Positions 1,325 through 60,294 of a stretch of 64,000 nt of DNA are shown here, in pieces. The notes beneath the pieces are model-generated. The model made no database searches and had not been told where the DNA came from. It saw nothing but the letters and a program-made list of their open reading frames with translations. Every line of letters begins with the position of its first letter. The first letter of the stretch is position 1. Source of the stretch: Demequina pelophila (GTDB taxonomy: Bacteria > Actinomycetota > Actinomycetes > Actinomycetales > Demequinaceae); the NCBI RefSeq assembly GCF_000971175.1, contig NZ_BBLY01000001.1, positions 173,709-237,708 of the forward strand, given 5' to 3'. Both the position numbers and the translations under genes were made by a program.

Positions 1325-2295
1325 CCTCCGCCCGGGAGGCGGACCCCGCCCGCGCATCGTCCCCCGCGATCGTCGCGATCGTCGGAGCGACCGCGACGGG
1401 CAAGTCCGCCGTGAGCCTCGAGCTCGCCCGCGCGCTGGGCGGCGAGGTGGTCAACTCGGACTCGATGCAGTTCTACCGGGGCATGGACATCGGCACGGCC
1501 AAGCTGCCCGTCGCCGAGCGACGCGGCGTGGTCCACCACCAGCTCGACATGCTCGACGTCCACGAGGACGCCTCCGTGGCGCGCTTCCAGCGCGAGGCGC
1601 GCGCGGACATCGCGGACATCCACGCGCGGGGACGGCGGGCGATCGTGGTCGGCGGCTCCGGGCTGTACCTGCGCGCGCTGCTCGATCGCTTCGACTTCCC
1701 CGGCACGGATCCGGCGCTGCGCGCGTCCCTCGAGGCGCGGGCGGAGGCCGAGGGGCCCGGCGTGCTCCATCGCGAGCTCGCCGAGCTCGACGCGGAGGCC
1801 GCCGCCAAGATCCCGGTCCAGAACGTCAAGCGCCTGGTGCGCGCCCTCGAGATCATTCGGCTGACGGGCTCCACCCAGAGCTCCCTGCCGCGGCACGAGT
1901 ACTTCGCGCCCGCAGTGACCGTCGCCCTCACCGTGCCGTTCGAGGTGCTCGATCCGCGCATCGACGCCCGCGTCGACGCGATGTGGGAGGCCGGGCTGGT
2001 GGACGAGGTGCGCGCCCTGGAGGCGCGGGGCCTGCGCGACGGGGTCACCGCCCGCCGTGCCGTGGGCTACGCGGAGACGCTGAGGCACCTGGACGGCGAG
2101 CTGGACGCGGCCGAGACGCGCGACCTCATCGCGCAGCACACGCGCCGACTGGCCAGGAAGCAGCAGCAGTGGTGGCGGCCCGACCCGCGCGTGCGGTGGG
2201 TCGACGGGCCCGTGACCGCGGACGATGCGCCGCGCGCCGCCGCGGATGCCCTCGCCGTGGTGCGGGAGGCCGATGCCGCCCTCGCCGCGCGCTGA
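1321..2295 (+). CDS. miaA: tRNA dimethylallyltransferase MiaA
   Basis: Transfers the dimethylallyl group from DMAPP to N6 of A37 in tRNAs that read UNN codons, supplying the substrate for MiaB. The 324-residue product is of normal family length. It has a P-loop GATATGKS near residues 22-29, the DSMQFYRGMDIGTAK substrate motif near residue 45, and GGSGLYLRALLD. The GTG at 1321 is chosen because it overlaps the miaB stop (GTGA), the usual coupling in this operon; the first ~18 residues are a variable extension. The C-terminus carries the RRLARKQQQWW motif typical of the family. The next gene, dapF, has its own leaderless promoter. Confidence 0.96.
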   Translation: MTSAREADPARASSPAIVAIVGATATGKSAVSLELARALGGEVVNSDSMQFYRGMDIGTAKLPVAERRGVVHHQLDMLDVHEDASVARFQREARADIADIHARGRRAIVVGGSGLYLRALLDRFDFPGTDPALRASLEARAEAEGPGVLHRELAELDAEAAAKIPVQNVKRLVRALEIIRLTGSTQSSLPRHEYFAPAVTVALTVPFEVLDPRIDARVDAMWEAGLVDEVRALEARGLRDGVTARRAVGYAETLRHLDGELDAAETRDLIAQHTRRLARKQQQWWRPDPRVRWVDGPVTADDAPRAAADALAVVREADAALAAR

Positions 2296-2296
2296 T

Positions 2297-2302
2297 TAGG
2301 CT
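2297..2302 (+). promoter_or_regulatory. -10 element of a leaderless dapF promoter
   Basis: TAGGCT lies 6 nt before the dapF ATG, so transcription would begin at or next to the start codon. It overlaps the end of miaA, giving dapF independent expression. The same TAGNNT-N6/7-start layout recurs at many genes in this window. Confidence 0.6.
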
Positions 2303-2308
2303 GGCCGC

Positions 2309-3178
2309 ATGACTCTCGCGTTCACCAAGGGGCACGGCACGCAGAACGACTTCGTGCTGCTGTTCGACCCGGCCGGCACGATCGACCTCACGCCCGAGCT
2401 GGTGCGGTTCCTCGCCGACCGACGCGCGGGGCTCGGCGGCGACGGCGTCATCCGCGCGGTGCGCGCCGGGGCCGTGGACACGGGCGCGGGATTCGCGCCC
2501 GAGACGTGGTTCATGGACTACTGGAACGCGGACGGCACCACCGCGGAGATGTGCGGCAACGGCGCCCGGGTGTTCGGCGCGTTCATCGAGGCGTCCGCGG
2601 GGGTGACGCTGGGCGAGGGCACCGTCATCGGCACGCGCGGCGGACCCAAGACGCTCACCTCGCTGGGCGGCGGCCGCTACGCCGTGGGCATGGGGGAGTA
2701 TCGCCTGGGCGACGCGGGCAAGGGATTCGATTCCGAGGTGGCCGCGCGCGGCCTCGAGCACGTGCGACCGGCCCTGTCCGTGGACATGGGCAACCCGCAT
2801 CACGTGGTCGCGCTCGCACACCTCGACGAGCTGGCCGCGCTGGACCTAACGGTCGCGCCTCGGGTCGACCCGGTGCCGCCGCACGGCACCAACGTCGAGT
2901 TCGCGGTCGCGCTCGGGGAGCACGCGGTCGACGGCGAGACGCGCGGCCGCGTGCGCATGCGCGTCCACGAGCGCGGCTCGGGCGAGACCCGCTCGTGCGG
3001 CACGGGCGCGTGCGCCGTGGCCCTCGCGATGCGCGCCTGGGGCGGCGACGGCGCGCCGGACGTCTGGGACGTCGAGGTGCCCGGCGGGCTCGTCACCGTG
3101 CGGATCGAGGGCTCGTCGACCGTGCTCGAGGGGCCGGCCGTGCTGGTCGCGCACGGCGAGGTCGAGGCGGGGGACTAG
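2309..3178 (+). CDS. dapF: diaminopimelate epimerase DapF
   Basis: Interconverts LL- and meso-diaminopimelate in lysine biosynthesis; meso-DAP can also be a peptidoglycan residue. The 289-residue product carries both catalytic cysteines in their expected contexts: MCGNGAR (Cys82) and SCGTGAC (Cys230), the general acid/base pair of this cofactor-independent epimerase. The N-terminus MTLAFTKGHGTQNDF matches the family start, and no Shine-Dalgarno is needed because the promoter appears leaderless. If the cell wall contains ornithine or lysine instead of DAP, as the MurE motif hints, this enzyme would serve lysine synthesis only. Convergent with the methyltransferase gene, 3 nt away. Confidence 0.96.
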   Translation: MTLAFTKGHGTQNDFVLLFDPAGTIDLTPELVRFLADRRAGLGGDGVIRAVRAGAVDTGAGFAPETWFMDYWNADGTTAEMCGNGARVFGAFIEASAGVTLGEGTVIGTRGGPKTLTSLGGGRYAVGMGEYRLGDAGKGFDSEVAARGLEHVRPALSVDMGNPHHVVALAHLDELAALDLTVAPRVDPVPPHGTNVEFAVALGEHAVDGETRGRVRMRVHERGSGETRSCGTGACAVALAMRAWGGDGAPDVWDVEVPGGLVTVRIEGSSTVLEGPAVLVAHGEVEAGD

Positions 3179-3181
3179 CCC

Positions 3182-58797: not shown

Positions 58798-58854
58798 CGC
58801 GACGCCGCCCGGGACGGGCCGCGCCCGGGCGCGCGACGCACCGGGCCCGTCCCG

Positions 58855-58864
58855 CGCATCGTCC
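58855..58864 (-). repeat. intergenic copy of the GGACGATGCG motif upstream of hisA
   Basis: Exact copy on the minus strand, 54 nt before the hisA ATG, outside any gene. Confidence 0.8.
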
Positions 58865-58917
58865 CTGGGCCCTCCCCGTGCGAGACTGAGCCCCAGCCCG
58901 CCACCCGAGAGGACCTC

Positions 58918-59655
58918 ATGACCGCCACGCCCCGCCTCGAGCTTCTTCCCGCCGTCGACGTCGCCGACGGTCAGGCCGTCCGCCTCACGCAGGGCGAGGC
59001 CGGCTCGGAGACGAGCTACGGCGACCCGCTCTCCGCGGCCCAGGACTGGGTCGTCGGCGGCGCCGAGTGGATCCACCTGGTGGACCTGGACGCGGCCTTC
59101 GGGCGCGGCTCCAACGCGGAGCTCCTCGCGGCCGTGGTCAAGGCCGTCGACGTCAAGGTCGAGATGAGCGGCGGCATCCGCGACGACGAGTCGCTCGAGC
59201 GCGCCCTCGCGACCGGCTGCGCCCGCGTCAACCTGGGCACCGCCGCGCTCGAGAACCCGGAGTGGACCGCCCGCGCGATCGACCGCCACGGCGACCGCAT
59301 CGCGGTGGGCCTCGACGTGCGCGGCACCACGCTGGCCGCGCGCGGCTGGACCCGCGACGGCGGCGACCTGTGGGAGGTGCTCGCGCGCCTCGACGCCGCT
59401 GGCTGCGCGCGCTACGTGGTCACGGACGTGAAGAAGGACGGCATGCTGTCCGGACCGAACCTCGACCTGCTGTCCCAGGTGTGCGCGGCGACCGACGCGC
59501 CCGTGGTCGCCTCGGGCGGCATCAGCTCGCTCGACGACATCGCCGCGCTGCGCACGCTGACCGGCGAGGGCATCGAGGGCGCGATCGTGGGCAAGGCCCT
59601 CTACAACGGCAACTTCACGCTCCCGCAGGCGCTCGACGTCGCCGGTCGCCCCTGA
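58918..59655 (+). CDS. hisA: phosphoribosylformimino-AICAR isomerase HisA/PriA
   Basis: TIM-barrel isomerase of histidine synthesis; in many actinobacteria this is PriA, which also isomerises phosphoribosylanthranilate for tryptophan. The 245-residue product has the first catalytic Asp in LLPAVDVADGQAVRLTQG and the second in YVVTDVKKDGMLSGPNL, with phosphate-binding SGGIRDD and GGISSLDDIAAL. The sequence is compatible with PriA, but dual activity cannot be proved here; presence or absence of a separate trpF in the genome would help. ATG 58918 has GAGAGGA upstream. Confidence 0.95.
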   Translation: MTATPRLELLPAVDVADGQAVRLTQGEAGSETSYGDPLSAAQDWVVGGAEWIHLVDLDAAFGRGSNAELLAAVVKAVDVKVEMSGGIRDDESLERALATGCARVNLGTAALENPEWTARAIDRHGDRIAVGLDVRGTTLAARGWTRDGGDLWEVLARLDAAGCARYVVTDVKKDGMLSGPNLDLLSQVCAATDAPVVASGGISSLDDIAALRTLTGEGIEGAIVGKALYNGNFTLPQALDVAGRP

Positions 59656-59703
59656 CCCCACGCTCGCCCCGTCCCGGGCGTAGGTTCTGCGAGGAGGTGG
59701 ACG

Positions 59704-60294
59704 ATGCGTCGCTTGACAGGTCTCGCGGCCGCCGGTGCCGCGACGGTCGCCGGGGTCACGATGCTCGCCGGCTGTGCGTCCGGCGGGTTCACGGTTGGCT
59801 CGGGCTCCGAGCCTGTCGATCCGGAGTGCCCGGAGGTGCTGCCGCGACCGGACGCCGCCGAGCGCGACCGGGAGCCGACGGTCGAGGTGGGCGACATCGG
59901 GCTCGAGACGGCGTGGCTGTGCCGCTACGCCGACACCGGGGAGGCCCAGCCGGGGGAGTGGCCGTACTACACGTGGGCGCTCACCGACGGCCCGGCGCCG
60001 ATCCCCGGGGAGAACCTGGGCGACGTGGCGGAGGCGCTCGGCACCCTCGAGCCAGTGCCCGACGACCTCGCGTGCATGGCGGACCTGGGCCCGGTCTGGC
60101 TCCTGGTGCTCGAGGGAGAGGAGCGCTACGGCGTCGCCATAGAGGAGTTCGGCTGCCGCATGACCTCCGTGGTCGCCGACCCGTGGGCGCACGTCGAGGG
60201 TGAGCCGTACCCCGGTATCAGCGGCACGGTGCTGGGCTCCGACGAGCTCATCGCGTCGTTGCGGGACGCCGCCGGGGTGACCTGGAGCCGGTGA
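59704..60294 (+). CDS. lipoprotein of unknown function
   Basis: Exported lipoprotein; no family recognised. The 196-residue product has a signal peptide with lipobox MLAGC (Cys24) and mature sequence acidic and Pro/Gly-rich, with additional cysteines in DPECPEVL, AWLCRYADTG, DLACMADLG and FGCRMTSVV that could pair. No transmembrane helix beyond the signal. The ATG at 59704 lies within a GGACGATGCG motif and has GAGGAGGTGG upstream. LspA from this window would process it. Confidence 0.8.
   Translation: MRRLTGLAAAGAATVAGVTMLAGCASGGFTVGSGSEPVDPECPEVLPRPDAAERDREPTVEVGDIGLETAWLCRYADTGEAQPGEWPYYTWALTDGPAPIPGENLGDVAEALGTLEPVPDDLACMADLGPVWLLVLEGEERYGVAIEEFGCRMTSVVADPWAHVEGEPYPGISGTVLGSDELIASLRDAAGVTWSR

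Follow-up and report, generated by a model that had tools for sequence, protein, structure and literature searches.

The window described here is a 64-kb stretch of the genome of Demequina pelophila (C11:173709-237708; the assembly comprises 2,682,991 bp in 11 contigs and is 99.99% complete). It carries a division and cell-wall cluster, formed by ftsZ and ftsW-, mraY-, murG- and wag31-like genes, and further contains lexA, hflX, a recQ-like gene, hisD and hisC; neither tRNA genes nor Rfam matches at the gathering score were found in it. Scattered along this stretch is a ten-letter word, GGACGATGCG, present in 23 exact copies (10 forward and 13 reverse) and accompanied by ten copies of a sister word, GGCCGATGCG (six forward and four reverse). 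An earlier note on this DNA had listed 22 positions of GGACGATGCG, all of them correct, and had overlooked the forward copy at 44162; its estimate of about ten sister-word copies agrees with the exact count. The distribution of GGACGATGCG in this genome, the respelling of the word across the genus and the gene content of these bacteria suggest that it is probably a DNA uptake sequence (DUS). The exact copies in the window are as follows.

1353..1362, reverse: GGACGATGCG
2220..2229, forward: GGACGATGCG
7825..7834, forward: GGACGATGCG, inverted pair with 7843, inside lexA (7414-8157, reverse)
7843..7852, reverse: GGACGATGCG, inverted partner of 7825
11831..11840, reverse: GGACGATGCG
15199..15208, forward: GGACGATGCG
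15372..15381, reverse: GGACGATGCG
19312..19321, reverse: GGACGATGCG
27083..27092, forward: GGACGATGCG
28024..28033, reverse: GGACGATGCG
34242..34251, reverse: GGACGATGCG
37119..37128, reverse: GGACGATGCG
39856..39865, forward: GGACGATGCG
41271..41280, forward: GGACGATGCG
44162..44171, forward: GGACGATGCG, the copy missing from the earlier list
44502..44511, reverse: GGACGATGCG
45997..46006, reverse: GGACGATGCG
46030..46039, reverse: GGACGATGCG
48138..48147, forward: GGACGATGCG
54894..54903, forward: GGACGATGCG, within the recQ-like gene (52647-54917, reverse)
54977..54986, reverse: GGACGATGCG, between the recQ-like gene and hisC
58855..58864, reverse: GGACGATGCG, intergenic according to the gene calls
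59699..59708, forward: GGACGATGCG, intergenic according to the gene calls
3563..3572, reverse: sister word GGCCGATGCG
5527..5536, forward: sister word GGCCGATGCG
11930..11939, reverse: sister word GGCCGATGCG
15232..15241, forward: sister word GGCCGATGCG
31761..31770, forward: sister word GGCCGATGCG
32748..32757, reverse: sister word GGCCGATGCG
33317..33326, forward: sister word GGCCGATGCG
42210..42219, reverse: sister word GGCCGATGCG
45108..45117, forward: sister word GGCCGATGCG
57089..57098, forward: sister word GGCCGATGCG

Excess of the word over expectation

A third-order Markov model predicts 0.82 copies of GGACGATGCG in the window on both strands. The count over the whole genome that the earlier note had proposed gave 927 copies (459 forward and 468 reverse), equivalent to 345 per Mb or one copy per 2.9 kb, compared with only four copies of the reversed word used as a control (one forward and three reverse); the sister word GGCCGATGCG occurs 483 times in the same genome. 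Placement and expectation were analysed over 458 contiguous kb, in which a codon-usage script called 412 genes and left 9.2% of the DNA as a non-coding remainder. This region holds 138 copies of GGACGATGCG, against 6.25 expected at order 3, where it is the second-ranked 10-mer, and 54.1 at order 6, and the word is strongly in excess under every Markov order from 1 to 6. The top 10-mer under these orders is GGGACGATGC, with 118 copies where order 3 predicts 3.5 (z 61). Neither word appears in the top list obtained with a Markov model of order k-2 because their own 9-mers are enriched.

Since a frequent word may be produced by base composition, codon usage or a common peptide, a codon-aware null was generated by shuffling synonymous codons among all genes, with proteins and codon usage kept, in 100 runs. 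Coding copies of GGACGATGCG number 105, against 11.9 in the shuffles (standard deviation 3.2, maximum 19), and therefore neither composition nor protein explains them. The ratio of observed to shuffled copies is similar in the four quartiles of gene guanine-plus-cytosine (GC) content (8.5, 10.2, 8.1 and 9.3). Some frequent words of this region do look protein-made: GGCAAGACCA, likewise in excess near ftsZ in many of the genomes examined, encodes in one frame Gly-Lys-Thr, as found in nucleotide-binding loops, and its abundance is probably an ordinary protein effect that offers a useful contrast to GGACGATGCG. The coding copies of GGACGATGCG, however, are divided between sense and antisense (52 and 53) and use several reading frames, and the congeneric G027 and G001, with GC contents of 0.706 and 0.702 in the stretches read, hold 57 and 123 copies, so that an origin of the word in high GC content, codon usage or a common peptide can be practically discounted. 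Intergenic DNA is favoured, 33 of the 138 copies (24%) lying within the non-coding remainder. The view put forward in the earlier note, that the copies prefer intergenic DNA and that the DNA word rather than the protein is selected (or driven), agrees with these results, and the closeness to a codon-aware expectation that would speak against it is absent.

Shape, orientation and spacing

The core of the word reads GGGACGATGCG. Replacing one base of GGACGATGCG at position 2, 4, 5, 6, 8 or 9 gives words with 0-11 copies each in the 458 kb; the variant with A changed to C at position 3 is found 78 times, and positions 1, 7 and 10 are more variable. Flanking positions beyond the 11-mer add at most 0.3 bits each, such that the longer consensus proposed earlier holds as far as GGGACGATGCG and not further.

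GGACGATGCG differs from its own reverse complement. A spread of one copy every 2.9 kb over the whole genome would suit a nucleoid, replication or segregation site, and chromosome-orienting (KOPS-like) and Chi-like roles had been suggested. Sites of this kind, which would point one way along the chromosome, are very unlikely in view of the balance between strands, which is observed genome-wide, in the 458 kb (64 and 74 copies) and within genes. Both strands are mixed throughout 50-kb bins of this region (replichores were not mapped), and the strand bias looked for in these bins and in the whole-genome counts was not found. Neighbouring copies lie on opposite strands 73 times and on the same strand 64 times, without orientation runs, and their spacing is random and Poisson-like, with a mean of 3.2 kb and a coefficient of variation of 0.995. 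Strand balance is likewise observed in all 12 genomes with at least 600 copies of GGACGATGCG.

Three of the 137 pairs of neighbours lie within 60 bp of each other and one of the three is inverted; a role as terminator hairpins was rejected on these counts. This sole inverted pair within 60 bp in the 458 kb is the one inside lexA (7825-7852), where CCGGCCGG is flanked by the two copies as a perfect inverted repeat.

Spellings across Demequina and turnover of sites

The word was counted genome-wide in 37 of the 44 genomes of the genus and in 22 genomes from other families within the order. GGACGATGCG is present in 711-1564 copies in 12 of the 37 Demequina genomes, in 235 copies in one (G026) and in 10-123 copies in the remaining 24; the genomes of other families contain 3-37 copies, and reversed-word controls gave at most 11 copies in every genome counted. 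Many of the Demequina genomes poor in GGACGATGCG are rich in a related word. Local screens of 16-60 kb per genome revealed enrichment of GGCCGATGCG in G014, G016, G029 and G034, of the overlapping GCCGATGCGC(T) in G031 and G033, and of GGCCGATGCC in G015, G023, G060 and G064, as well as GGCCGATGCT in G010, GCCCGACGCT in G009 and GCCCGACGCG in G012. Genome-wide, GGCCGATGCG reaches 862-1203 copies in G034, G029, G014, G033 and G016 and 667 in G031, GGCCGATGCC reaches 907-1118 copies in G015, G023, G060 and G064 and 651 in G036, and GGCCGATGCT reaches 736 copies in G010. At least 600 copies are attained by GGCCGATGCG in eight of the 44 genomes (in six of which it is the commonest word counted), by GGCCGATGCC in five and by GGCCGATGCT in one. 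The sister word of the window, GGCCGATGCG, is the main word of another Demequina clade. Spellings vary by clade at their ends around the constant core CGA(T/C)GC, those of GCCCGACGC(T/G), GCCGACGCT and GCCGATGCGC being based on 40-140 kb per genome rather than on whole-genome counts.

Less pronounced cases include G003, with 37 copies of GCCGACGCT against 6.8 expected in 140 kb, and G018, with a weak GCCGATGCC (33 against 5.8 expected in 140 kb). A local GGCCGATGCT label for G065 and G008 was abandoned, since the genome-wide counts show three words mixed. Other repeats were seen in passing. Near ftsZ on contig C1 of G018 (L170-L172), overlapping repeats combine to read CCTCCGGGTACCAGGGCA, with 11-12 copies in 60 kb, and are unrelated to the uptake-like word. 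G003 (L164-L166 and L311-L314) carries an AT-rich repeat, AATGGCTTGA, that may be a small element; ten copies were counted in 140 kb, where 0.1 would be expected.

The spellings were placed on a tree of nine concatenated proteins with 43 rows (41 Demequina and two outgroups), eight of which have half or under half of their columns filled. Four labels were assigned on the basis of at least 600 genome-wide copies, except in G059 and G063, which were labelled by local counts over 40 kb each; 15 of the 41 Demequina rows were left unlabelled, comprising those below 600 copies, G003, G009 and G012, which carry other words, and G061, in which GGACGATGCG was not counted. The labels of the 26 remaining rows require three changes on the tree, the minimum possible, compared with a mean of 10.9 for shuffled labels, of which none of 200 were as low, although near-copies alone cause labels to cluster. 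In the clade of D. pelophila, 12 of the 14 rows carry GGACGATGCG, G026 has a low count and G061 is the uncounted genome. G004 and G063 also carry GGACGATGCG, in another clade together with G012, G001 and G027.

When the window sites were aligned over 34 relatives, the exact word was kept at 38 of 121 sites in the ten genomes with the same spelling, at 12 of 155 in 18 genomes with other spellings, at one of 46 in five genomes with no clear word and at one of 15 in G026. Of the 285 aligned sites that differ, a gap is involved at 53 and none at 232, and the word is therefore mostly not an inserted element. Site positions turn over, mostly by substitution, while the density of the word is kept. 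The comparison of relatives suggested in the earlier note, which opposed conservation of positions to turnover, points to turnover.

The FtsZ of the window was compared with one genome per species; among the best 80 matches, eight Demequina loci show 83-90% identity, and non-Demequina actinobacteria show 67-80% identity in their best segments, which places the window in Demequina or very close to it. Among the named loci, those of D. silvatica (L032) and D. soli (L033) have the GGACGATGCG spelling, and that of D. flava (L035) has GGCCGATGCT. A word screen of 80 named ftsZ loci recovered a word in four of eight Demequina loci of 9-21 kb, and so misses about half of the cases. It also flagged Microbacterium: M. 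hibisci has CGGATGCCG, with 17 copies in 21 kb against 1.3 expected. This word totals 155 copies in 383 kb from 19 loci (17 of Microbacterium, one of Glaciihabitans and one of Arthrobacter) and 45 copies in 1061 kb from 53 other non-Demequina loci. It is present in 12-21 copies per 21 kb, with 0-1 reversed, in L047, L053, L067, L074, L085 and L097, and in 1-8 copies in the other 11 Microbacterium loci (for example one in L086); CGGATGCCG is possibly a second actinobacterial uptake word. The locus of Glaciihabitans sp. dw_435 (L079) contains six copies of AGCGGATGAC in 21 kb, where 0.17 would be expected, and L051, L054, L068 and L071 were each flagged for single other words.

Competence-like genes and known uptake systems

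The D. pelophila genome encodes a putative type IV pilus and competence machinery. An operon at about 552-563 kb of C11 comprises pilB-like, pilT, pilC-like and pilin genes, two small genes, one of them with an N-methylation motif, a gene for a 599-amino-acid protein and a pilM-like gene; two genes in the pilN/pilO position have no family match. PilT scores above its NCBIfam cut-off, and the PilB, PilC and PilM matches are below theirs. The comEC- and comEA-like genes lie near each other at about 946-949 kb; ComEC exceeds the Pfam cut-off, and the full-length ComEA and ComEC models score below the NCBIfam cut-offs. A second ATPase of the PilT/PilU family is encoded away from the pilus operon (G000 C7:69009-70028) and has counterparts in most of the Demequina genomes listed. 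Across the genus, a PilT-family protein over the cut-off and N-methylated pilins were found in 37 of 37 genomes each (N-methylated pilins also in nine of the 22 from other families), and ComEC (Pfam) over the cut-off and ComEA matches in 43 of 44 each, 13 of the latter over the cut-off; the single miss of both is G005, an assembly with 85% completeness.

It is rather improbable that GGACGATGCG is a relic of uptake that has ceased to be active in this strain. Uptake words could outlive their machinery, and G026, which lies inside the GGACGATGCG clade and retains 235 copies, may exemplify such decay, as its comEC frame is broken mid-gene (C1:423579-424363, L319) and no pilin was found at its metE locus among the matches listed; the break itself may reflect genuine decay or a mistake in the assembly. 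In D. pelophila, on the other hand, the comEA-, comEC- and pilus-like genes are unbroken and the word is sharp, with 138 exact copies compared with the few copies of each single change at its invariable positions.

The best single candidate for a receptor, albeit a weak one, is a lone pilin encoded near metE (G000 contig C6, about 64562-64987), for which Foldseek returned no match at E <= 0.001. It was rejected as a strict marker of the word, since G001 and G027 possess it without the word and G011, G020, G031 and G036 carry the word with no metE-adjacent pilin among the matches listed (E to about 4e-7).

The latter four genomes are among several observations that weigh against a function in uptake. 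The candidate pilin has an acidic head, with a net charge of -10 here and of -4 to -16 in 11 aligned rows, and all other pilins checked, as well as ComEA, are acidic too. PilT exceeds the cut-off in nine of the 22 relatives from other families, which lack this word, and ComEC-family matches occur in ten of 14 control genomes, including E. coli and Corynebacterium; ComEC is therefore no proof of competence and, because of these two results, the pilus and competence machinery is, as judged from gene content, permissive only. Six Demequina genomes (G008, G019, G021, G035, G062 and G065) mix two or three words at 216-427 copies without a clear winner. With gene GC as a proxy for newly acquired DNA, a lower density of GGACGATGCG in low-GC genes (12.7 against 41.7 copies per 100 kb) resembled depletion in acquired DNA and was discarded, as it vanished against the per-quartile shuffles; low-GC genes are not depleted of the word once codon usage is allowed for. 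Inverted close pairs, which are common for neisserial uptake words, are rare here, amounting to one of the 137 neighbouring pairs. Finally, G001 (over 160 kb) and G027 (over 120 kb) have no word of this kind among their top-ranked words, despite matches to comEA, comEC and pilT and the metE-adjacent pilin.

These two relatives, which match the whole machinery and yielded no word of this kind in 120-160 kb, would also fit a word kept by DNA methylation, by repair or by a cytoplasmic DNA-binding protein, with no role in uptake. HIP1 (GCGATCGC) of cyanobacteria, a palindromic word that is abundant genome-wide and whose role is debated, is the model for this alternative, and the abundance of GGACGATGCG, its presence on both strands and its strand-balanced placement within genes are compatible with it. 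Unlike HIP1, however, GGACGATGCG is non-palindromic and respelled by clade, and respelling around a fixed core matches the description of uptake words, so that, judged by shape and spelling, a HIP1-like origin is considered unlikely; a methylase or nucleoid-protein site, also listed in the earlier note, could account for the word with lower probability than uptake.

The interpretation of GGACGATGCG as a DUS rests on its abundance, strand balance and codon-aware excess, on turnover by substitution, on clade spellings around a fixed core that follow the tree, and on the presence of pilus and competence genes; from this pattern we infer the function. Of the roles listed in the earlier note, DNA uptake is the one that best fits these data, and the KOPS-like and Chi-like ones are not borne out. 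The word would serve as a label, bound, presumably through a pilin, by the predicted type IV pilus and ComEA/ComEC machinery, and the cell would preferentially import and recombine DNA of its own lineage. Biased uptake followed by recombination would act as a molecular drive, accumulating the word wherever the protein tolerates it, and the spelling would change along with the receptor, limiting exchange between clades. If this is correct, Demequina would provide a separate case in which to ask what gives rise to uptake words, whether molecular drive is enough, by what means a pilin recognizes DNA sequence and whether species are held apart by their dialects, as well as a practical route to the transformation of Demequina, and perhaps of other actinobacteria, by means of the right word on donor DNA.

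The closest parallel is the DUS of Neisseriaceae (GCCGTCTGAA and variants, with ComP as receptor), also a 10-mer with copy numbers from roughly one thousand into the thousands. Neisserial dialects are clade spellings with variable ends around an invariant core (PMC3630211), and these bacteria combine a type IV pilus with competence genes (PMC6370729), which in Demequina are predicted from gene families. The words themselves are different, the Demequina core being CGA(T/C)GC rather than CTG, and Demequina are Gram-positive actinobacteria with a lower density of the word (345 per Mb) and few inverted pairs. The uptake signal sequences of Pasteurellaceae, which belong to another phylum and have a different word, are similarly abundant, evolve by point change and are under-represented in coding DNA (PMC7811141), as is the word of Demequina; AT-rich flanks matter in Haemophilus influenzae (PMC7811141), in contrast to the low information content of the Demequina flanks. 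Micrococcus luteus, a competent member of the same phylum, shares ComEA and ComEC but uses Flp/Tad pili, unlike the PilB/PilT/PilC-like operon of Demequina (PMC6370729), and the accessible part of that paper makes no mention of an uptake word. Strong sequence preference in uptake has been attributed to two families, Pasteurellaceae and Neisseriaceae (PMC7811141), or to Neisseria and Haemophilus, with nearly all other competent species importing DNA regardless of sequence (PMC12040237), and no description of an uptake word in Actinobacteria was found in the literature covered, outside which lie most subscription papers and preprints. Uptake words, reported for two Gram-negative families, are likely to occur here in a Gram-positive phylum. 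Self-recognizing uptake in Gram-positive bacteria is on balance more probable than not; the dialects of Demequina, found across the genus and divided along the species tree, would act as barriers to exchange, and the CGGATGCCG word of Microbacterium suggests that it may be widespread in Actinomycetota.

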